DNA of 43,064 nt from Methanosarcinales archaeon (GTDB taxonomy: Archaea; Halobacteriota; Syntropharchaeia; Alkanophagales; Methanospirareceae), in contig JAODGH010000034.1 in assembly GCA_025464325.1 (NCBI GenBank), positions 1 through 43,064 on the forward strand, read 5' to 3'. Both the position numbers and the translations under genes were made by a program. Every line of letters starts with the position of its first letter. The stretch's first letter is position 1. Below, piece after piece: positions 23,704 through 38,895 of this stretch. The notes under the pieces were generated by a model. It was not told the DNA's origin. It made no database searches and saw only the letters and a program-made list of their open reading frames with translations.

Positions 23704-25062
23704 TTATTCTCCCAGCCGGTATTTATATTCAAGACCATTCAGGGCATCTTCGTTCAGGTAGTATCTCAGTTTATCTCTGGCGATTATTCTAAATGCGAAT
23801 CTAATCAACTCCTCGTAGAATTCGCAATAAGGTGAGGGGTTACAAAAATTACCCTGCATTGAATGTATCTCCGCAGGGCAAGGTGCACCACAGATATTCC
23901 GGAAGGCACAGGCATTACAGGGCTCAATCTTCTCTACTATCCTGCCTCGCACCATCCTGAACGGCTCAGAATCCATGATGTCTGAAATGGAGTCCCTGAA
24001 GATATTTCCCCCGTAGTATTCCTTAATACCGATGAACTCACCGCAAGGAAACACATCTCCTTTTGCACCGATAGCCAGGAAGCATCGCCCTCCTCCACAG
24101 GGTGATATATCACACATAAGTTTCCTTGCGGTAGGAGCAATGATACCCACCAGGATATTTGCGAAGTTACCAACGATTATCTGCCTCCCCGTTTCCCGTG
24201 TGAGTTCCTCGGCTCTCTCCAGGGCGCCGATGAAATATTTTATGAGCGCCTTATTGTCCGGCATCAGATGACGCGCCGATTCCTGCGTACCCCTGACGGG
24301 GTTCAGCAAAACGGAGGGTACTCTTCTGTCATGCAGGAAACTTACCATCTCCGGGAGTTGCGCTACATTTTGGTTCGTCACGGTCGTTACCACATTCAGT
24401 CTTTGATAGCCATCAAACCACTCAATAGCTTCTACGATGTCCTCAAATGTCCCTTCTCCACTCCATGTCTTCCTCAGTGAATTATGTACTTCCGGATAGG
24501 GCGAATCCAGCGTGGTTCCCACACTCACACCATGCTTCTTGATGAAATCCACATCTTCCTCTTTGAAAAGCGTGCCATTTGTTTGAATGCCGAAGTATAA
24601 TTTGTCCTCAAATTCTTCTACGGCATCGAAAATCTCTTCTTTCATCAATAATGGCTCGCTACCATGGAACACAATGGTGAGCTTTCTGCCTCCTTCGTTC
24701 TCTTCAGCATATTCACATGCTTTCGTAAGTATCACAAAAAGCTGCTCCTTCTTCAGTTGCTGGTGGCTTCTCCTTAGCTCCTGTGGTATATAGCAGTATG
24801 AACAATTCAGATTGCATCTGCTTACCGAATTCATGTAAATAACCGCGAGCGATGACTTGAATCGGAACACTTGCATCTCTTCTTCACACTCTCGCTTGAC
24901 TCTGTCATACAGCGGTAGAATCTCCTGCCTTATCTTTGAATTGATATCCTCGCCCCTGGGAACCAGCGCCCAAAATACGGTATCCGGGTCGATGACGAGC
25001 AGGGATTCACCATCGATGTCACAAACCGTCAAATGCGGGTGATGCCCGGTATTGTAATGCAT
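23704..25062 (-). CDS. Radical SAM/SPASM peptide-modifying enzyme (CbpB-like)
   Basis: The 452-residue protein has three parts. Residues 1-75 are an N-terminal region that may bind a leader peptide. The radical SAM core has CNLNCSYCY with Cys83, 87 and 90 and FHGSEPLL near 132-139. The SPASM domain for auxiliary clusters has Cys317, 322, 327, 340, 382, 385, 391, 395, 407 and 413. Layout and length match anaerobic sulfatase-maturase/PqqE-type enzymes that modify peptides. The gene lies 18 bp after a 50-residue peptide gene. I recall a predicted methanogen pair named CbpA (precursor) and CbpB (this enzyme type) in TIGRFAM; the match is from memory of layout and could not be searched. The chemical change made is unknown. 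Confidence 0.82.
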   Translation of the reverse strand: MHYNTGHHPHLTVCDIDGESLLVIDPDTVFWALVPRGEDINSKIRQEILPLYDRVKRECEEEMQVFRFKSSLAVIYMNSVSRCNLNCSYCYIPQELRRSHQQLKKEQLFVILTKACEYAEENEGGRKLTIVFHGSEPLLMKEEIFDAVEEFEDKLYFGIQTNGTLFKEEDVDFIKKHGVSVGTTLDSPYPEVHNSLRKTWSGEGTFEDIVEAIEWFDGYQRLNVVTTVTNQNVAQLPEMVSFLHDRRVPSVLLNPVRGTQESARHLMPDNKALIKYFIGALERAEELTRETGRQIIVGNFANILVGIIAPTARKLMCDISPCGGGRCFLAIGAKGDVFPCGEFIGIKEYYGGNIFRDSISDIMDSEPFRMVRGRIVEKIEPCNACAFRNICGAPCPAEIHSMQGNFCNPSPYCEFYEELIRFAFRIIARDKLRYYLNEDALNGLEYKYRLGE

Positions 25063-25080
25063 TTGTACTGTCCGATCGTG

Positions 25081-25233
25081 CTAAAAGAGCGCCTTATCAG
25101 CAGGTGATTCACCGAACATGTAGTGCGATAACCCCCCATTTGCCGCCGTAGGACATTTCAACCGGTACGCCATCACGCTTTGCTTCTCTTCGTTCTCTTC
25201 TTTTACACCCTTCTCACTAATATTCGTGCTCAT
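25081..25233 (-). CDS. 50-residue candidate modified-peptide precursor (CbpA-like)
   Basis: A 50-residue product starts MSTNISEKGV, is acidic and charged for about 20 residues (leader-like), and then carries a Cys-containing, Gly/Ser/Tyr-rich segment: MAYRLKCPTAANGG then LSHYMFGESPADKALF. It has one Cys (residue 27). A leader plus core directly upstream of a SPASM radical SAM gene is the classic arrangement of a RiPP precursor. Support for it being a gene: a TTAAATA box centred at about 25260, 27 bp before ATG 25233, which fits a leaderless transcript. A longer frame upstream exists, but it would run through that promoter. No protease or exporter gene is adjacent, so the product may act inside the cell. 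Confidence 0.65.
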   Translation of the reverse strand: MSTNISEKGVKEENEEKQSVMAYRLKCPTAANGGLSHYMFGESPADKALF

Positions 25234-25256: not shown

Positions 25257-25302
25257 TATTTAAGTGTATCTTTTTGTAATACATATGTAATGCAATATTA
25301 AC
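25257..25302. promoter_or_regulatory. Divergent promoter between the peptide gene and the RHH-AIRS gene
   Basis: The minus strand has TTAAATA at 25257-25263, set for a start at the peptide gene's ATG. The plus strand has an AT-rich CAATATTA at 25293-25300, suited to the regulator gene. Between them lies a perfect 10-bp palindrome, tacatatgta, at 25280-25289. A ribbon-helix-helix protein binds such short inverted repeats, so this may be the regulator's operator. Confidence 0.45.
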
Positions 25303-25327: not shown

Positions 25328-26248
25328 ATGGAACCCGTAAATATCAGAATGCCAAAGGCTAAAATACAGAAGATCGATGAGATCGCTACCAGGCACGGTA
25401 TCACACGCTCTGAAGTAGTAAGGCATGCACTGACAATTTATTTCCAGCTATTAGAGAATATAGGCGGATTCATAAACCTCAGGAGCATGAAAATAGCACC
25501 TGATGAGATTTCTATTTCTAAATGGGGCGACCTCGTGATTATGAAGCTCAAGAACGGACAGGTGTTAGTACTGGCTAATACTTCCTCGGGTGGTATAGGA
25601 CCGAAAAGAGAAGACCAGATTAAAATCGATGGTACACTCCTTGGTCGGTTAATGGCTCGAACAGTGCTTATAAAGATTCTGGCTGTGGGGGCGCAACCGA
25701 TTGTTCTGATCGTCAACCTGAGTGTGGAATTCTTCCCTACGGGCTCACAAATATTCCAGGGTATAAGGGAGGAATCGCATAAAATTAGTACACTGGAGAT
25801 ATTAGAAGGTCATACCGAAGAAAACATTGAAACAAGCCAGACGGGCATGTGCATTACTGCACTGGGGCTATGCATGGAGAAGGAATTGAAGATAGGGAAG
25901 TCGCTGCAAAACGATTTGATCGTTGCCATCGGTGAGCCGAGGGTACGGGAAGAAGTGTTAAACGCTGGTACCGGGAGCATTGTGGGGGTGGAAGACGTAC
26001 AGAAACTTTCCATGAAAGAATTTATCCATGAGATTATACCGGTAGGTCATGATGGGATAATGGGGAGTTTAGAAATGATGCGGAATAAATCGGGCTATAA
26101 GTGCAGAATAGAGCAAAGGCGGACAATAGACATAGAAAAATCAGCGGGGCCTTCAACCGTTGTGCTTGTTACGCTGGAGGAGGACAAACTGGAAACACTG
26201 AAGAATATGGTTAAAAGAGATATTCAAGTTGTGGGCAGGATACTTTAG
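25328..26248 (+). CDS. Ribbon-helix-helix regulator fused to an AIR-synthase-like ATP-binding domain
   Basis: Residues 1-45 of this 306-residue protein form a CopG/Arc-type ribbon-helix-helix: EPVNIRMPKAKIQKIDEIATRHGITRSEVVRHAL. The rest resembles the AIR-synthase/selenophosphate-synthetase fold: VLVLANTSSGGIGPKREDQIKIDGTLLGRLMARTVLIKILAVGAQPIVLIVNL (seen in pieces near 80-135) and DLIVAIGEPRVREEVL near 195. In true SelD, PurM and HypE this fold binds ATP. The catalytic Cys/Sec loop of SelD is not evident. Such fusions occur in methanogens and are described only as regulators or selenophosphate-synthetase-related proteins. It may sense a nucleotide or metabolite and control DNA. It is divergent from the peptide/SPASM pair. 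I chose ATG 25328, where the RHH strand begins. Confidence 0.78.
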   Translation: MEPVNIRMPKAKIQKIDEIATRHGITRSEVVRHALTIYFQLLENIGGFINLRSMKIAPDEISISKWGDLVIMKLKNGQVLVLANTSSGGIGPKREDQIKIDGTLLGRLMARTVLIKILAVGAQPIVLIVNLSVEFFPTGSQIFQGIREESHKISTLEILEGHTEENIETSQTGMCITALGLCMEKELKIGKSLQNDLIVAIGEPRVREEVLNAGTGSIVGVEDVQKLSMKEFIHEIIPVGHDGIMGSLEMMRNKSGYKCRIEQRRTIDIEKSAGPSTVVLVTLEEDKLETLKNMVKRDIQVVGRIL

Positions 26249-30716: not shown

Positions 30717-31610
30717 TTAAAATACACTCCCTGTCTCCGCTTCTGGCAGTATCTTGAGTAAATAGCCTTCGTACAGCGATTTCTTTATCTCGCATATATC
30801 GGACAGTTTCCTGTTACCTATTTCTATGTTGCGTATCTGCTCCTCTTCGCCTGGCTCTAACTTCACACGCAAACCATCAAGATGAATTATGGTGGAGAAC
30901 TCCTCACCCGGTTTTGGCGGGATAGTCATGTCTATCAGTTCTTTCAAGAATAATGGTGAGGCTGCGAGTGGATCTTCCTCTATCTCGCGTCGTCTGACAT
31001 CAAGCTCAGCACGCAATCCCTCCACCATCTTCTCCAGACTCGCTATCTCATGTTTGCGCTTCATCCGTTCGGTTCTACGTCCGATATTACCAACATAGTG
31101 TGGCAAATCCATCTCAGGTGGTCCCCCAACTATTATATACGGCACTTCCAGATCGTCACATATCCGCTTTTTATCCTCTATGCACTCCTTGAAGTTTCCA
31201 AATATGAATACCGCAGCGTCACATTCCTCTATTATCCTCTTCTCTTCTACCTTCATCTGGGCTATACGCTTGCCGACACCACGTGTCAGCCCCATCATAT
31301 TCGTAATAGCACCTTTACGTCTCAGGAATTCCGCGACATCACACATGGGATCTACTGCATGGTGCCTGCCGAGAGAAGGGACAACTATCATTATCTCCGC
31401 ACCCGCAAGTGGTAATTCTATCAGCTTACCACCAACCTCTTTAACTTTGTTCCTTATCACCTTCTCCTCTTCTGCCGGAAATGCCAGATGCAGCATCGTC
31501 TCCATCTGCATCACCATCTCCTGGAGTATGAACCCACCAATATCCTGCGTCAGCTCTTTCAACTCGTTGAACTTGTACACACCGCCAGAGAACATCATTA
31601 TCTTATACAT
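30717..31610 (-). CDS. mmp7: Methanogenesis marker protein 7 (Mmp7)
   Basis: The protein of about 297 residues matches the mmp7 family: MYKIMMFSGGVYKFNELKEL at the start, GGKLIELPLAGAEIMIVVPSLGRHHAVDPMCDVAEFLR, RGVGKRIAQMKVEEKRIIEECDAAVFIFGNFKECI. Mmp7 is found only in archaea with methyl-coenzyme M reductase. I recall that Mmp7, Mmp17, Mmp3, McrC and component A2 form the ATP-dependent complex that activates MCR. Its start at 31610 is set by GGGGGGAC just upstream and overlaps the mmp17 end by 13 bp. The residues after 180 form a helical, charged region. Confidence 0.88.
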   Translation of the reverse strand: MYKIMMFSGGVYKFNELKELTQDIGGFILQEMVMQMETMLHLAFPAEEEKVIRNKVKEVGGKLIELPLAGAEIMIVVPSLGRHHAVDPMCDVAEFLRRKGAITNMMGLTRGVGKRIAQMKVEEKRIIEECDAAVFIFGNFKECIEDKKRICDDLEVPYIIVGGPPEMDLPHYVGNIGRRTERMKRKHEIASLEKMVEGLRAELDVRRREIEEDPLAASPLFLKELIDMTIPPKPGEEFSTIIHLDGLRVKLEPGEEEQIRNIEIGNRKLSDICEIKKSLYEGYLLKILPEAETGSVF

Positions 31611-32170
31611 CTCACTGTCCCCCCTTTCTCTAATTCCGCCACCATATCCTCCACCCGCTTCTTCCATTCATCCGATATCGGATTCTCTGATGCGATGATA
31701 GTCACCCTGCCAGACGAAGGTAACGGATACCGGACACGCGCACCCTCGGGCAATATCCGATCCACAGCATCCAGTATCCGGACATTCAGATCTTCCCTGG
31801 GCTCGTAGACCACCATCTTCATCAGCTTTTCCATCTCCTTTGCATCCACATCCACGGTTATCTCCAGCCTGCTCAGCTGTTTCACACGATCGTCAAACTT
31901 ATCCCAGAGCAGTGCGAGCAGCTTTGGTGCGTACTTCTCGTCCGTTATCTTCAACCTATTATCGCCCCGTAATGTCATGTCATTCACTGTAATAGGGCTC
32001 GGTACTCTGCCTATCTTAACCGAAATGACAAATACATGTTCTGAAGGATCGCAAAACAGATATACGTTATCCACATTGCTGTGTAACCCTACTTCTCTGA
32101 ATATATTCTGACAGATCCTGCTATAACTCGCATTTGCAAATTCATCTCCCCCTTCTACTTTTACTTCCAT
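31598..32170 (-). CDS. mmp17: Methanogenesis marker protein 17 (Mmp17)
   Basis: The 190-residue protein matches the mmp17 family (DUF2102): VEGGDEFANASYSRICQNIFREV, DPSEHVFVISVKIGRVPSPITVNDMTLRGD, and ITDEKYAPKLLALLWDKF. It probably acts with Mmp7 in MCR activation, as the gene overlap also suggests. It lies 37 bp after mmp14. Length and start (MEVKVEGG) agree with the family. Confidence 0.88.
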   Translation of the reverse strand: MEVKVEGGDEFANASYSRICQNIFREVGLHSNVDNVYLFCDPSEHVFVISVKIGRVPSPITVNDMTLRGDNRLKITDEKYAPKLLALLWDKFDDRVKQLSRLEITVDVDAKEMEKLMKMVVYEPREDLNVRILDAVDRILPEGARVRYPLPSSGRVTIIASENPISDEWKKRVEDMVAELEKGGTVRCIR

Positions 32171-32207
32171 CTCCCTATCACTCTATAAATGAAATAAAAT
32201 TATAACC

Positions 32208-33644
32208 CTACATATTTCTTTTTTGCTTTTTTATTCGCTCACCGAGTATGCAGCCGCCACCCTGGATACCACCTATCGGATTCGCAGGTGTCCCGAACTG
32301 ATGCATGCACCTGCCAAGTACTGCAGCGCCACGAGCCAGTGCGTCATCGGCAAATATCACCTCGTTCTCCATATTACGCCCGAATAGGTCACTCAGTTTC
32401 TCCAGTATCAGTTCCGGCTTCCGTCCGGTAATGCCCGCCCTGCCTGTGATACCTATCTTCGTATTTGGCAGTAATAACCCCTCCTCCTTCGCTATTGCGA
32501 CCAGACGCTCGGTTATGCACGCAGAGACCTCGTCTATTACCGGGTGAATATACTGAATACCTGCATCTTTCTTTATCTCCTCGCCAATTTCGCTTATTTT
32601 CGGTAGATCTGATAGGTTATCCCCGGCATCAACGCCGATCAATGTAACACCGTTCTTCCTCGCTGCTTCTATATTCACCGGTGATCCGCCGACCCGTGTT
32701 CCCGAAGTGATCTTTTCTATCTTCAAATGGCTTAAAACCGCCTCCGCGTACGTTTTTACCACTCCCTTCTTCACTTTGTAACGCCCCTGCATCGGGAAAT
32801 CAAGCACCGAGGGGTATTTCTCACTCACTACCTTCGATACCAGTGCATCGGGTATGGCACCTGCAAGTCCACAGTAGCTGCCCACCACCTTCGAATAGGG
32901 CAATTGATCGTCGGTTATACGTCCAGCGAGGGTAGTCCCAAAGTCCAGCGACAGAACAGGATTGCGATAGTCCACATCAAGCCATTTCGCAGCTCCTTTA
33001 AGACCAGCGGTCACAAGTTCACCTTCCATCTCGTTCGCTACCAGCGATTCACCGCCTGGTGCTTCGTTACCCGTTACCGCACCATCGAAATAGACCTTAT
33101 CCATCTGGGAGTAGTTCCTCAGTTCGGCTGGTATATCATTTATAGTCATCGGTGAGATCATCTTCCTTGGCGGTACCCCCGCGAGCATGCAACCTTTGGC
33201 CAGTGCTTGAATCACACCCTGAATCTCGTCAACAGTGGTGAATCCCGCAGTTACACCCGAAGAACGCACGACGAAATGCAGATCCGCTACCGTTACCCCG
33301 GCTGCGCGTGCGCTTTCCACCAGTGTATCTTTTACAAGATTCGCAATAGAATCCACCGAAAGCCCAACGTTCGTTATCGTATGACAGAAGACATCCCGGT
33401 CCGACAATGCCTCTCGAGTCATCCTGACCGCCCTATCAAGTATATACGTCTTCCCGCTCGTCAGATCTGTCGCGCTCAATATGGACTTTGTGGTGCTATT
33501 ACCGAGTTCTACACTCGCCACAATGAATATGGGTTTCAGTGTGAGTTCACCGCGAGAGAGGCGTAAAATGAAAAACAGATCGCTGTAACTCATTCTCCTG
33601 GTGTGCAATATCTTCGGATGATACTTCTTACCGAATAATCCCAT
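32208..33644 (-). CDS. mmp14: Methanogenesis marker protein 14 (Mmp14), ASKHA-type ATPase
   Basis: The 478-residue protein matches the mmp14 family: FIVASVELGNSTTKSILSATDL (phosphate-1 motif of the actin/Hsp70/acetate-kinase fold), LHFVVRSSGVTAGF, VANEMEGELVTAGLKGAAKW, VLSLDFGTTLAGRITDDQLPY, and the tail GRCMHQFGTPANPIGGIQGGGCILGER. It is specific to MCR-containing archaea and its role is not established; related BadF/HgdC-type ATPases activate reductases. The CAGGAG ribosome site before ATG 33644 fixes the start. It heads a minus-strand cluster mmp14-mmp17-mmp7 that faces away from the mtr operon. Confidence 0.85.
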   Translation of the reverse strand: MGLFGKKYHPKILHTRRMSYSDLFFILRLSRGELTLKPIFIVASVELGNSTTKSILSATDLTSGKTYILDRAVRMTREALSDRDVFCHTITNVGLSVDSIANLVKDTLVESARAAGVTVADLHFVVRSSGVTAGFTTVDEIQGVIQALAKGCMLAGVPPRKMISPMTINDIPAELRNYSQMDKVYFDGAVTGNEAPGGESLVANEMEGELVTAGLKGAAKWLDVDYRNPVLSLDFGTTLAGRITDDQLPYSKVVGSYCGLAGAIPDALVSKVVSEKYPSVLDFPMQGRYKVKKGVVKTYAEAVLSHLKIEKITSGTRVGGSPVNIEAARKNGVTLIGVDAGDNLSDLPKISEIGEEIKKDAGIQYIHPVIDEVSACITERLVAIAKEEGLLLPNTKIGITGRAGITGRKPELILEKLSDLFGRNMENEVIFADDALARGAAVLGRCMHQFGTPANPIGGIQGGGCILGERIKKQKRNM

Positions 33645-33690
33645 CTTCTCCTGCTCGCCTCCACTACTGGTTTGATTGGTATACGTTGAA

Positions 33691-33734
33691 CCGTATAAAC
33701 ATCTATCCGTATAAATATGATCAGTATATAAATA
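33691..33734 (-). promoter_or_regulatory. mmp14 promoter region with three spaced CCGTATAAA-like motifs
   Basis: Motifs CCGTATAAA at 33691-33699 and 33707-33715, plus a related CAGTATATAAA at 33722-33732, start about 15-16 bp apart. The third is the likely TATA box for mmp14 (TTTATATA on -, start near 33702). The other two lie in the leader and may be operator copies or alternative boxes. Confidence 0.45.
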
Positions 33735-33807
33735 CAGGCAAAATGGGTGTATGAATAAAAAAAAGACTCATTGATTGTTACCTTGCAGGGAAACAAAACG
33801 TAAAAAT

Positions 33808-33847
33808 AGAAAAGATTTATATATGCTAATACTTGTTATCCATTTTT
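33808..33847 (+). promoter_or_regulatory. mtr operon promoter
   Basis: A TTTATATA box lies at 33816-33823, with a purine-rich BRE-like aaaaga just before it. The box centre is about 28 bp before mtrE ATG 33848. The transcript therefore likely begins at or next to the ATG, and no Shine-Dalgarno is seen. Confidence 0.6.
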
Positions 33848-34831
33848 ATGGGACTGATAGTAGTATTGCTCTTTGCATGGATGTTAGTGATAGCGTTCTT
33901 AGCGTTCGTAGCGTGCACATTCGAGGATCTGGAGTCAGACATAGGGTCACAGAGCAATCCGAACTCGCAGGTACAGCTGGCTGCACAGGTGGGGCAGGTA
34001 CATCGGTTCTTCAATAAAGCGATCTCTGGCGAGCCATTATCAAACGCGCTTTATTGCGCAACGGCGGGGACGATAACGTGGATGCTGTTACAGAAGCTTG
34101 AACCTTTTGTTCCTGACGCACCATGGAAGGCTGCAGTGCTGGCAATACCCGTTGGCGTACTCGGTGCGGCGATGGTACACCTGATATTTTCGACAACCGC
34201 GCATTGTGGCAGAACGGTTGCACAGAAACGGTTCGAGCAACCACTCTATCTCGATGTGCTCTACGGTCATTTGCTGCCAATAGCGACACATGGATACATG
34301 ACCACGTTCTGTATAACCACAATTGCATACATACAGAGCAACCTGGGGACTTTATCGGGCAATCCTGCATTGAATCATCCGTTCGCTCTGCCCATGCTCG
34401 GGTTTATATGGGGCATTACCGTGGGTTCAATCGGATCTTCAACCGGGGATGTCCATTATGGAACGGAGCGAGAATTTCAGGATAGACCGTTCGGTGAGGG
34501 TAAGCGAGTGATTTATCACGGTAAGATAACGAGATATGCGGAGTGCGGTATTCGTACACAGCGAGACATAGCGGGGTTCTGTGCGAAGTTTGGGGGACCT
34601 GTCACGGGTATGACATTCGGACTGATCATCCTGTTCGAGAACTGGAGGAATATGGTGGGAATGGTACTCGCTGGCTTTTTACCTGATCTGCCGGCATTCA
34701 CACCTACTGGAGATATGACGGCGGTGATATCGATTGTGGCTGGTTTACTGATCATTGCAGCACTGGCGCTTGGCAATCTGACGTTCGTTAGATGGGTGAG
34801 GAAGAGATGTGGACCGTTCGTAGGAGAGTGA
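33848..34831 (+). CDS. mtrE: Tetrahydromethanopterin S-methyltransferase subunit E
   Basis: The 327-residue integral membrane protein has the MtrE hallmark FEDLESDIGSQSNPNSQVQLAAQVGQVHRFFNKAISGEPLSNAL after the first helix, then about six to seven helices. With MtrC and MtrD it probably forms the sodium-translocating part of the complex. ATG 33848 is chosen over a TTG five codons upstream because the promoter places the transcript start there. It is the first gene of mtrEDCBAFGH. Length is slightly above the usual 295-310. Confidence 0.95.
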   Translation: MGLIVVLLFAWMLVIAFLAFVACTFEDLESDIGSQSNPNSQVQLAAQVGQVHRFFNKAISGEPLSNALYCATAGTITWMLLQKLEPFVPDAPWKAAVLAIPVGVLGAAMVHLIFSTTAHCGRTVAQKRFEQPLYLDVLYGHLLPIATHGYMTTFCITTIAYIQSNLGTLSGNPALNHPFALPMLGFIWGITVGSIGSSTGDVHYGTEREFQDRPFGEGKRVIYHGKITRYAECGIRTQRDIAGFCAKFGGPVTGMTFGLIILFENWRNMVGMVLAGFLPDLPAFTPTGDMTAVISIVAGLLIIAALALGNLTFVRWVRKRCGPFVGE

Positions 34832-34840
34832 TGTGAGGCT

Positions 34841-35542
34841 ATGGAACCGACGTTAATGATATTGATATTGGTACTGGTAGTGATAGGCGGGTTACTGGCG
34901 AGTCTGGGTGCACATCTGCTACCTGTGGGTGGTGCACCGGCGGCAATGGGTACTGCAACAGGAATAGCGACCGGAACGGTGCAGATAATGCTGGGAGCAG
35001 TGATGACGGGCTTATTCACGGCTTCATCGGTAGCTACACTCACGAACAACCTGGCACTCGTTGCACTATCGGGCGCAATTGGAGCGACAATAATGATAAG
35101 TGTGGTGATGCTTATGGCGAATATCCTGTACGCGTTCGGCTGCGGTGTGGTTCCCGTATCCGGAAGAGTACCTGTGGATCCGATAACGAAAGAGCCGCAG
35201 ACGCCGTACAAGACACCGCAAACCGACGGACACGGGGTACCCAATGTGGTTTTCGTATCCGGTATGCTGGGCGGTTTTTCTGGTGGGCTCGGTGGTGCAC
35301 TTATGTACTACGCATTACTGAACTACGCACACTTTTCACCGAATACAGCGGGAATAGGCGCAATGTCTATCTTCGTGCCCAACGCGATCATCGCGGCTTA
35401 TAACATTCGGGGTACCATAGAGGGTTTCCATGATCCGAAATTCAAGCGATTGCCGTTCTCTCTGGCTACTTCTTTCGTTGTATCTCTGTTGTGTGGGATC
35501 GTGGTGGTGATTGCGGCTTCGGTACTGGGAGGTGTGGCATAA
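34841..35542 (+). CDS. mtrD: Tetrahydromethanopterin S-methyltransferase subunit D
   Basis: The 233-residue membrane protein is MtrD: GGLLASLGAHLLPVGGAPAAMG, then SGAIGATIMISVVMLMANI, a soluble loop PVDPITKEPQTPYKTPQTDGHGVPNVVFVSGMLGG, and SIFVPNAIIAAYNIRGTIEGFHDP. About six helices. It begins 9 bp after mtrE and ends 1 bp before mtrC. Confidence 0.95.
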   Translation: MEPTLMILILVLVVIGGLLASLGAHLLPVGGAPAAMGTATGIATGTVQIMLGAVMTGLFTASSVATLTNNLALVALSGAIGATIMISVVMLMANILYAFGCGVVPVSGRVPVDPITKEPQTPYKTPQTDGHGVPNVVFVSGMLGGFSGGLGGALMYYALLNYAHFSPNTAGIGAMSIFVPNAIIAAYNIRGTIEGFHDPKFKRLPFSLATSFVVSLLCGIVVVIAASVLGGVA

Positions 35543-35543
35543 G

Positions 35544-36395
35544 ATGACAGTAACACCTGCAGCAGTGGAGGAGGAAGCACCTGCTGAAAAGAAACTGGAC
35601 TTCTCCTTCCCGCCTGGCGAGACCGAGTTAGGGATAATCGCAGGTATAATATCAGCGGTGGTGGTCACGTTAGCGGCACTTCCAGCGGTGATAAAGGGAG
35701 CGGCATTGATTTTCGCCATTCTCTGGGGAATGGACTCGGTACGAAAGACATCTAAGTATGGACTGGGAACGGGTGTTCCGTCCATAGGCGTACTGGCAAT
35801 CGGTTATGGTGTGATCGGTACGTTGATGGGGTTAGCACTGGCGGAGTATGGTAGAGCCGGACAGTTTTATCCAGGGGTTCTGGTAGGTGTGCTCGTGATG
35901 GGAGGCATTGGTCTGATTTCAGGTATAATGTCGAATCACGAGAAGCTTGTGGCGATGAAGATCCCGCATTTAGAGCGAGCGATGATGGAGCTGGGAATGA
36001 CCGGTACACTGATCATATTACTCGAATGTTCCATTGTGACGGGTTCACTGAATTTCGGTGCAGTGTTAGAAGATGTGATAGAGACAGGAGTCATAGCACT
36101 GATGTTCATCTTCTCGGCTTTTGCGATATTCCATCCGTACAACGCATGTCTTGGTCCAGACGAACGTAGAGAGCGAACGAGAATGGTCGCGGTAGAGATC
36201 GGGGGGTTGATATGTATCCTGCTTGGATTTGCGCAGATAGTGATCGGGACTTCACCTTACGGGATCTTAGACGGTGTGTCACTGGTGGTCTTTGGTGCTG
36301 TGATATGGATAGTGTTCTTCAGGATGTTCATCAGGGCGTGTTTCAAAGAAGCGTATGCTACGGTGGGTACCGGATTGATCAAGACATTAGGATAA
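35544..36395 (+). CDS. mtrC: Tetrahydromethanopterin S-methyltransferase subunit C
   Basis: The 283-residue membrane protein matches MtrC: a short acidic cytoplasmic start (MTVTPAAVEEEAPAEKK), then helices with GTGVPSIGVLAIGYGVIGTLMGLALAEYG and HPYNACLGPDERRERTR in a loop. The start just after the mtrD stop (TAAG ATG) is preferred to an upstream in-frame ATG that overlaps mtrD. Confidence 0.94.
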   Translation: MTVTPAAVEEEAPAEKKLDFSFPPGETELGIIAGIISAVVVTLAALPAVIKGAALIFAILWGMDSVRKTSKYGLGTGVPSIGVLAIGYGVIGTLMGLALAEYGRAGQFYPGVLVGVLVMGGIGLISGIMSNHEKLVAMKIPHLERAMMELGMTGTLIILLECSIVTGSLNFGAVLEDVIETGVIALMFIFSAFAIFHPYNACLGPDERRERTRMVAVEIGGLICILLGFAQIVIGTSPYGILDGVSLVVFGAVIWIVFFRMFIRACFKEAYATVGTGLIKTLG

Positions 36396-36411
36396 AGGAG
36401 GGTGACAGAAG

Positions 36412-36714
36412 ATGATAGTGATAAATGATAAATATGGTGTGGTGCTGGATCCCGGTACTCTCACAGTGGGCATCACTAAGCCGGGGTTCTACAAGGTAGG
36501 ACTCTGGCCTATAGAAGACCAGCTGACAGTTATGGAGAGGGCTGTGGACGATCTCTTCAATTGCCTCGATCCAACAACGAGATTCTCTATGGGACAGCCG
36601 AACAGGGAAGGAATGCTGAGCAAAGCAGGCTTCACCACGTACTTCATGGTAGGATTGACCTTTGGGATACTGGCGGTTGCGCTTCTGTTCATAGCATTGG
36701 GTGGAGGTGTATGA
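36412..36714 (+). CDS. mtrB: Tetrahydromethanopterin S-methyltransferase subunit B
   Basis: The 100-residue protein matches MtrB: INDKYGVVLDPGTLTVGI at the start, RAVDDLFNCLDPTT, and one C-terminal membrane helix GLTFGILAVALLFIALG. A GGAGGGTGA site precedes it. In known complexes MtrB is one of the small single-span subunits of the central stalk. Confidence 0.93.
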   Translation: MIVINDKYGVVLDPGTLTVGITKPGFYKVGLWPIEDQLTVMERAVDDLFNCLDPTTRFSMGQPNREGMLSKAGFTTYFMVGLTFGILAVALLFIALGGGV

Positions 36715-36715
36715 A

Positions 36716-37450
36716 ATGGTAGAGAAGAAAGAAGTTCCCGACGGATGGCCACTTGTGACCGGTGATTACGAAGTTGGCGATCCGAAGAGCTGTGTGGCGG
36801 TATGTTCGTGTGGATCGTATTTCCACATAGAGAACCTGAAAGGAGTGGCGATACAGGGACCTGACAAGACAGAGAACATCGGGATAGAGAAGATCATTAC
36901 AAATATAATATCGAATCCAAACATACGATTTCTTATACTCGCGGGTGCAGAGGTTCCAGGTCATAGAAGTGGCGATTCAATGAAAGCGCTGGTGGAAAAC
37001 GGTATTGATCCCGATACCCATAAGATAATAGGCACTCCAGGTGCGATTCCATTCATCGAGAACTTACCTGATGAGGCTGTGGAACGGTTCAGACAGCAGG
37101 TAGAAGTAATCGACATGATCGGGGTGGAGGATTACGGTCAGATAAATGCGAAGATCCAGGAGCTAATAGCACGCGATCCCGGTGCGTTCCCGGGGGATCC
37201 GATGATAGTGAAGATAGGCGAGGAAGAAGCAGCTGCGGCAGTATTAGAAATGCCACTGGCGATGCCCGCCACGCCCTATATGGGTGTGATAGATCGTGCA
37301 ACCGATCAAATAACATATAAAGCACAGTTGATTGCAAGAGATCAGAAATTGACTTCAGGACTGTCCCGAAATGCGCTGATAGGACTGATGGCAGGGGTTA
37401 TCTCGGCACTGATCTTTCTCTTGCCACTTTTGGTATGGGGGGTGATATAA
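36716..37450 (+). CDS. mtrA: Corrinoid subunit MtrA of methyltransferase
   Basis: The 244-residue protein carries the cobamide that takes the methyl group. The soluble part has GWPLVTGDYEVGDPKSCVAVCSCGS near 10-35 and GAEVPGHRSGDSM with His83, the axial cobalt ligand (His84 in M. jannaschii). DMIGVEDYGQINAKI follows. One membrane helix closes the chain (residues 220-242). The TGA of mtrB is separated from its ATG by 1 bp. Cobalt binding is inferred from the conserved motif. Confidence 0.95.
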   Translation: MVEKKEVPDGWPLVTGDYEVGDPKSCVAVCSCGSYFHIENLKGVAIQGPDKTENIGIEKIITNIISNPNIRFLILAGAEVPGHRSGDSMKALVENGIDPDTHKIIGTPGAIPFIENLPDEAVERFRQQVEVIDMIGVEDYGQINAKIQELIARDPGAFPGDPMIVKIGEEEAAAAVLEMPLAMPATPYMGVIDRATDQITYKAQLIARDQKLTSGLSRNALIGLMAGVISALIFLLPLLVWGVI

Positions 37451-37648
37451 ATGCCGGCACCGAGAGTTGAACAGAACACGCCGGAAACCGCTCTATTAAA
37501 CGCACGGGTCGAAGATCTCAGGCACTTCATCACAATGATCGGTCGAGATTCCCGTTTTGCAGCCGGACTCTGGGCGGGGATCGTAAAAGGACTTGCAACG
37601 GGACTGTTCATCAGCTTCTTCCTGGTAGGGCTCAAGCTGGTGTTTTGA
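37451..37648 (+). CDS. mtrF: Tetrahydromethanopterin S-methyltransferase subunit F
   Basis: The 65-residue protein matches MtrF: ETALLNARVEDLRHFITMIGRDSRFAAGL then one membrane helix to GLKLVF. It begins with the base after the mtrA stop. A single-span subunit of the stalk. Confidence 0.9.
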   Translation: MPAPRVEQNTPETALLNARVEDLRHFITMIGRDSRFAAGLWAGIVKGLATGLFISFFLVGLKLVF

Positions 37649-37671
37649 GATATGACATGAGGTGAAGAGAA

Positions 37672-37902
37672 ATGGTAGAAGAAGAGATAAAAGAAGAAGA
37701 AGATGTGGAGAAGCCGGTACCCGTTGCAGTAACGCCACCAGAACACGTGAAACTGATGGATCGGTTGAACGAGATGGACGCTCGTGTGGAATTTGTAGCA
37801 GGTGAGCTGTGGCAACGACAGGGAGAACGACTGGGATTTACAATAGGGCTTCTGTACGGGGTGTTAATTGGTATGATCGCGTATGTAATATTCCTGATGT
37901 AG
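37672..37902 (+). CDS. mtrG: Tetrahydromethanopterin S-methyltransferase subunit G
   Basis: The 76-residue protein matches MtrG: an acidic start, EHVKLMDRLNEMDARVEFVAGELWQRQGERLG, and a C-terminal membrane helix. GAGGTGAAGAG precedes ATG 37672. Confidence 0.9.
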   Translation: MVEEEIKEEEDVEKPVPVAVTPPEHVKLMDRLNEMDARVEFVAGELWQRQGERLGFTIGLLYGVLIGMIAYVIFLM

Positions 37903-37920
37903 GAAAGGAGGGATAAGAAG

Positions 37921-38895
37921 ATGTTTTTGTTTGACAGGAAACAGGAAATATATGACATAGCTGGAGTGAAAGTGGGAGGACAGCCAGGAGAGACGCCGAC
38001 GGTTCTTTGTGGTACGATATTTTACGCGAAGCACTATCTGGTCGAGGACGCGGATAAGGGTATATTCGACAAGAAAGCTGCGGAAGACGTGATAAACAAA
38101 CAGGACGAGTTCTCTGATCTGACGGGGAACCCGTGCATGATGCAGATATTCTCGGAATCACCGGAGGCAATGGAGAAGGAGATCGCGTTCTGTACGGAGG
38201 TAAGCGACTCGCCCTTCCTTATCGATTCAACGGTCGCGGAAGCTAAGATAGCGGGTCTCAAATATGTGGACGAAGTGGGACTGACAGACAGGGCGGTATA
38301 TAACTCGATAAACGTATCGTGTTCTGAAGAGGAGCTGAAGGTGATAGAGGAGTCCAAGTTAGAAGCAGCGATTATACTGGCGTTTAATCCAAAAGATTCA
38401 ACAGTCGCGGGAAAGATCGATCTGCTGGAGACCGGTGCGGGTACCTTCGATAAAGGTCTGGTGTATCTTGCACGAGATATAGGCGTGACAAAACTGCTAT
38501 GTGATCCTGCTACGCTGCCTATAGGCGCCGGAGTAGGGTCATCGGTAGCTTCCGGGTTCGCTGTGAAGTCGAAATACGGCATTGCCGTAGGACTGGGTAT
38601 CCACAATGCACCGTCCGCATGGACGTGGCTCAAGACTTTCAGAAAAGAACACGCGACAAAAGGTCCCGGCGGCTGGGAAGGGCTCGGTGCAGATGTGTTC
38701 CGTATATGTGATATTGGGTCTAATGTTATACCGGTGATAGCGGGACAGGATTTCGTACTCTACGGACCCATAGAAAATGCACCACTGGTCTTCCCTCTGG
38801 TCGGTATGGCAGATATAATCATAGCAGAGGCGAACAAAGCAGAACACGATATGGAACCGAAAGGGGAACATCCTCTCACAAAGATGGGAGCATAG
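37921..38895 (+). CDS. mtrH: Methyltransferase subunit MtrH (methyl-H4MPT:corrinoid)
   Basis: The 324-residue soluble TIM-barrel protein transfers the methyl group between tetrahydromethanopterin and the MtrA cobamide: GGQPGETPTVLCGTIFYAKH, SDSPFLIDSTVAEAKIAGLKY, PIGAGVGSSVASGFAVKSKYG, GIHNAPSAWTWL. A strong AAAGGAGGG site is present. The last gene of the operon; a poly-T terminator follows. In an ANME-1-like organism the reaction would run toward methyl-H4MPT formation from methyl-CoM (reverse direction). Confidence 0.96.
   Translation: MFLFDRKQEIYDIAGVKVGGQPGETPTVLCGTIFYAKHYLVEDADKGIFDKKAAEDVINKQDEFSDLTGNPCMMQIFSESPEAMEKEIAFCTEVSDSPFLIDSTVAEAKIAGLKYVDEVGLTDRAVYNSINVSCSEEELKVIEESKLEAAIILAFNPKDSTVAGKIDLLETGAGTFDKGLVYLARDIGVTKLLCDPATLPIGAGVGSSVASGFAVKSKYGIAVGLGIHNAPSAWTWLKTFRKEHATKGPGGWEGLGADVFRICDIGSNVIPVIAGQDFVLYGPIENAPLVFPLVGMADIIIAEANKAEHDMEPKGEHPLTKMGA

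Follow-up and report, generated by a model that had tools for sequence, protein, structure and literature searches.

A divergent CbpA/CbpB-type peptide and radical SAM enzyme pair in an ANME-1 archaeon, with a possible link to cobamide or cobalt supply

The stretch of DNA analyzed here (43,064 nucleotides, referred to as the window) carries on its minus strand a 50-codon open reading frame and, 18 bp downstream, a radical SAM/SPASM gene, and both frames were found where the initial annotation, made from the sequence alone, had placed them. The two genes (cbpAB) are flanked by moeA and a divergent gene, termed RHH-AIRS, and the locus comprises the following features.

25081..25233, minus strand: cbpA-type precursor peptide of 50 aa, MSTNISEKGVKEENEEKQSVMAYRLKCPTAANGGLSHYMFGESPADKALF, matched to TIGR04164 at 22.9 bits, with homologues 5' of the examined cbpB genes
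23704..25062, minus strand: cbpB, predicted radical SAM/SPASM peptide-modifying enzyme of 452 aa (TIGR04163, 556 bits; PF04055, PF13186)
25257..25264, minus strand: TATA-like box CTTAAATA, recognized in the sequence about 27 nt 5' of ATG 25233
25274..25294, minus strand: predicted operator, palindrome TGCATTACATATGTATTACAA, located by motif search in the spacer that separates cbpA from the divergent regulator gene
25328..26248, plus strand: RHH-AIRS gene, divergent, probable transcriptional regulator (PF01402, PF00586)

With moeA and the RHH-AIRS gene as the immediate neighbors in the window, neither an exporter nor a protease was found beside cbpAB, as had been noted earlier. The host had been taken for a methane-cycling archaeon, which agrees with the presence of mtrE, mtrA, mtrH, and methanogenesis-marker genes in the window and with its relatives, the Methanophagales/ANME-1.

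The enzyme scored 556.2 bits against the CbpB model TIGR04163, covering profile positions 4–428 of 428 and far exceeding the curated cut-off of 375 bits. The Pfam radical SAM and SPASM families were each matched above their cut-offs (PF04055, 71.2 bits; PF13186, 37.2 bits). The radical SAM motif CX3CX2C corresponds to C83, C87, and C90 and was conserved among 39 homologues. The C-terminal region, for which at least ten cysteines had been claimed, contained exactly ten, and eight of them were conserved in the 39 homologues, which is enough for two auxiliary clusters. The second-best NCBIfam match was the model of the ranthipeptide maturase PapB, NF047865 (148.4 bits, below the cut-off of 340), and the SCIFF maturase model TIGR03974 gave 100 bits (below the cut-off of 425). 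Five CbpB N-termini had no Pfam match to a PqqD-like domain (RRE), and the low-confidence structural model has strands followed by a helix. The mean pLDDT values from AlphaFold were 48 for CbpB and 41 for the RHH-AIRS protein, a confidence too low for fold searches.

The 50-aa peptide scored 22.9 bits (E 4.5e-5) against the CbpA model TIGR04164, under its curated cut-off of 35 bits, because the ANME-1 version bears an extra charged leader and a longer tail. By sequence comparison it is a CbpA-type variant formally outside TIGR04164. The proposed membership in the CbpA/CbpB family thus stood for the enzyme and had to be qualified for the precursor; the pair in the window is a divergent version of an already catalogued family. 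The precursor shares with the family the motif [YF]x[LFY]xC...GGL[TS]H[YF]...SP...F directly upstream of the enzyme gene, and differs from the CbpA model in a charged N-terminal extension of 15–20 aa, a longer spacing between Cys and GGL, an ADKAL insertion before the final Phe, and Lys or Arg in place of the Glu preceding Cys. Residues 1–20 form the charged, leader-like part, and the conserved core starts at M21 (AYRLKC...GGLSHY...SP...F).

Two tests of the small frame had been named beforehand, namely homologues beside the enzyme in relatives and selection on the frame. A small homologous frame was present directly 5' of cbpB at all 41 distinct loci fetched, three of which carry damaged precursors (frameshifted in L083 and L074, tail lost in L072). 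In the 39-row alignment of the core, which the initial annotation had proposed for finding invariant residues, the Cys, the Gly-Leu (second Gly and Leu of GGL), and the His were each invariant (39/39), substitutions elsewhere in the GGL[TS]H[YF] block being limited to Thr/Ser and Tyr/Phe interchanges, so that the Tyr alternates with Phe; the C-terminal Phe was found in 38 of 38 complete peptides. Among the ANME-1 copies, pN/pS was 0.10 for the core, 0.23 for cbpB, and about 0.4–0.5 for the N-terminal extension, in which length changes preserve the frame. Judged by these substitution patterns, the 50-aa frame is a genuine selected gene, with its second half under strong purifying selection. We have very little doubt that the CbpA/CbpB-type pair is real, and the peptide is very probably modified post-translationally.

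A TTTAAA-type box is kept at the same position in ANME-1 relatives. Since this TATA-like element lies about 27 nt upstream and is conserved in relatives, a leaderless transcript starting at ATG 25233 is suggested, giving the 50-aa reading rather than one from the internal ATG 25173. The internal ATG aligns with the start of the 25–30 aa peptides of family f10, which we take to be the Archaeoglobaceae, and may serve as an alternative cbpA start.

CbpB scored above the cut-off in 39 of 394 Halobacteriota genomes (27 in f10, seven in ANME-1, the family of the window, three in f12, and one each in f15 and f33), and under it in the controls M. acetivorans and M. jannaschii. The family had been described as one of methanogens, a description that does not fit carriers found mostly in the presumed Archaeoglobaceae, then in ANME-1 and a few others. 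One of the carriers is almost certainly the cultivated Archaeoglobus fulgidus, which would bring the product within reach; a literature search for the CbpA/CbpB models found no paper naming them and no described product. In the CbpB tree, ANME-1 formed a single clade (100/100), with f12 and one f10 sequence as its neighbor, and the CbpB identity between ANME-1 and f12 was 47%.

The presence of cbpAB is patchy, and the pair has frequently been lost. On contig 73 of G033 (L184/L176), cbpA runs at its end in frame into the final codons of cbpB, and cobT comes next, a configuration that, read from the sequence, is a cbpB deletion scar; at least part of the patchiness is therefore loss. Separately, frame breaks were seen in both cbpA and cbpB of G036 (L074), and an intact cbpA with truncated cbpB and regulator genes in G007 (L075), each being decay or an assembly error.

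The RHH-AIRS protein has a ribbon-helix-helix N-terminus (PF01402, 21.0 bits; cut-off 20.5) fused to an AIR-synthase-like domain (PF00586, 20.4 bits, below the cut-off of 24) and is a probable transcriptional regulator. In ANME-1 and f12, its gene accompanies cobT, cbpAB, or both. It was present in all nine ANME-1 genomes whose cbpA is intact or cut by a contig end, compared with 13 of 42 other genomes (p = 1.6e-4 by Fisher's test, ignoring kinship). The intergenic palindrome TGCATTAC-N4-GTAATACAA had one site in the window, with 1 mismatch; allowing up to 2 mismatches added no further site, and 0 were expected by chance. The search covered 12 ANME-1 genomes, of which 9 had sites with 0–1 mismatch, always 5' of the RHH-AIRS gene or cbpA, and G015, G019, and G027 carry diverged versions at the RHH-AIRS/cbpA locus. 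We infer that the RHH-AIRS protein binds the palindrome as its operator. A wider regulon was considered and rejected, as the number of other sites with 2–3 mismatches was much the same as with the reversed control. No paper was found in a literature search for an RHH-AIRS cobalamin regulator.

The gene cobT, whose product acts in lower-ligand activation of cobamides (vitamin B12 assembly), lies directly 3' of cbpB at a distance of 1–60 bp in five ANME-1 loci (L038, L039, L041, L078, and L100) and in three f12 loci (L079–L081); its identity was confirmed for L038 (CobT TIGR03160, 457 bits; cut-off 319). In L039 and L081, cobT is followed by genes for a trpD-family phosphoribosyltransferase and a zinc dehydrogenase, which were also found in related loci without cbpAB. 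The same two genes were noted in the operon facing RHH-AIRS, with or without cobT, in L128, L133, L134, L139, and L141. Among the genomes without cbpAB, the RHH-AIRS gene stays beside cobT in G066, G083, and G008, and the RHH-AIRS/operator unit faces cobT. The retention of regulator and cobT without cbpAB, together with the scar in G033, places cbpAB between a shared promoter and cobT. In L040 and L133, cobalt-transport genes (cbiMQO-like, assigned by eye) are located on the far side of the regulator.

At the window locus and in L040, cobT was absent next to cbpB. The cobT of the window genome lies on another contig, adjoining cobalt-transport genes, and no operator match was found there. No conserved neighbor of cbpAB was found in the 27 Archaeoglobaceae loci. 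A single ancestral block may underlie both the ANME-1 and the f12 loci, which would then count as one event. In L083, an archaeal-type cobT lies about 1 kb 3' of cbpB; the intervening DNA is unrelated sequence, and the arrangement was counted as chance rather than as an operon. ThiC homologues numbered mostly one in CbpB-carrying families and two to four in many other families, so the CbpB-carrying families have no obvious BzaF-type base-making enzyme. The ThiC/BzaF count was discarded as a test of lower-ligand supply, as it tells families apart but, within a family, does not distinguish carriers of CbpB from non-carriers.

We propose that CbpB, with its radical SAM and SPASM auxiliary clusters, would act on the CbpA-type peptide and form a bond by radical chemistry, most probably linking the single invariant Cys with a residue in the GGL[TS]H[YF] block. 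A Cys-based crosslink is our first guess, since no nucleophile other than Cys is invariant and since the closest relatives of solved structure include CteB, the SCIFF maturase (PDB 5WGG, the best solved-structure relative of CbpB by sequence), which is a thioether-forming enzyme. CteB and PapB both act at Cys of a peptide; CbpB falls far under the cut-offs of both, and the window precursor contains a single Cys and lacks repeats. Any exact chemistry should be treated as tentative. The modified peptide, a ribosomally made product (RiPP) in line with the initial annotation, would stay inside the cell, as the initial annotation had suggested and as the lack of an exporter or protease nearby makes plausible. 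In PQQ and mycofactocin biosynthesis, a very short precursor and a radical SAM/SPASM enzyme give a non-exported product used as a cofactor. The system described here is similar in its short precursor and radical SAM/SPASM enzyme, and differs in that the Pfam search of five N-termini gave no PqqD-like domain and no peptidase or further tailoring genes lie by cbpAB. A search with the methano_modCys model TIGR04165 gave no match in the genome and equally none in the controls.

The product could serve the supply of a cobamide (vitamin B12-type cofactor) or of cobalt, its synthesis being co-controlled with lower-ligand activation by the RHH-AIRS regulator at the palindrome. This role is proposed because cobT is linked to cbpAB in two families, the promoter is shared, and cobalt-transport genes (assigned by eye) lie by the regulator in two loci. 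We lean slightly towards a cobamide or cobalt link, and the explanation as a whole, an intracellular CbpB-modified peptide for cobamide or cobalt supply under RHH-AIRS control, stands evenly poised. The cobT linkage, the divergent RHH-AIRS gene, and the palindromic operator are new here and give CbpA/CbpB a testable function. If the cobamide link is true, it would join peptide natural-product chemistry to B12 metabolism in methane-oxidizing archaea that depend on Mtr, a cobamide-dependent (corrinoid) methyltransferase.

The isolated Archaeoglobaceae pairs, without a conserved neighbor at 27 loci, and the separation of cbpAB from cobT in the window speak against a cobamide role, as does the frequent loss of cbpAB, which makes the pair dispensable. 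The first two favor a peptide unrelated to cobamides (a signal, a redox cofactor, or an antimicrobial), with the vicinity of cobT fortuitous, ANME-1 and f12 having both inherited it with the same ancestral block. This is rather unlikely, as regulator, operator, and cobT stay linked through repeated losses of cbpAB, and cobT lies 3' of cbpB in two families whose CbpB proteins are just 47% identical. Alternatively, the modified peptide might itself bind cobalt through Cys, His, and acidic residues and aid its uptake or delivery like a metallophore or chaperone; the invariance of Cys and His would agree with this, as would the cobalt-transport genes that adjoin the regulator in L040 and L133, but one Cys and one His provide few ligands, such transport neighbors occur in few loci, and no exporter lies near cbpAB, and we consider it improbable. 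There is an outside chance that cobamide assembly includes the CbpA-derived product as one of its components; CobT might, for instance, obtain an unusual lower-ligand base from it, or receive such a base through it as a delivering peptide. In that case, vitamin B12 biosynthesis would have its first known ribosomal peptide. It is very unlikely that cbpAB is a dispensable passenger cassette merely using the cobT promoter: the patchy presence and empty sites would suit one, but the precursor core is under strong selection, the G033 scar records loss and not recent insertion, and ANME-1 forms one clade in the CbpB tree. Finally, we give almost no credence to the 50-aa frame being a non-gene or only a translated leader of cbpB, despite its shortness, its CbpA score under the cut-off, and its position at the transcript 5' end, as selection and a peptide motif conserved across distant families despite many synonymous changes ruled out a spurious frame.

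Elsewhere in the window, the genes for methanogenesis markers 7, 17, and 14 adjoin the mtr genes at 30717–38895, about 8 kb from cbpA; mtrE, mtrA, and mtrH were assigned by model, and marker 7 scored slightly below its own cut-off. A gene for LarC, of nickel pincer cofactor biosynthesis, was assigned by model at 1523–2701.
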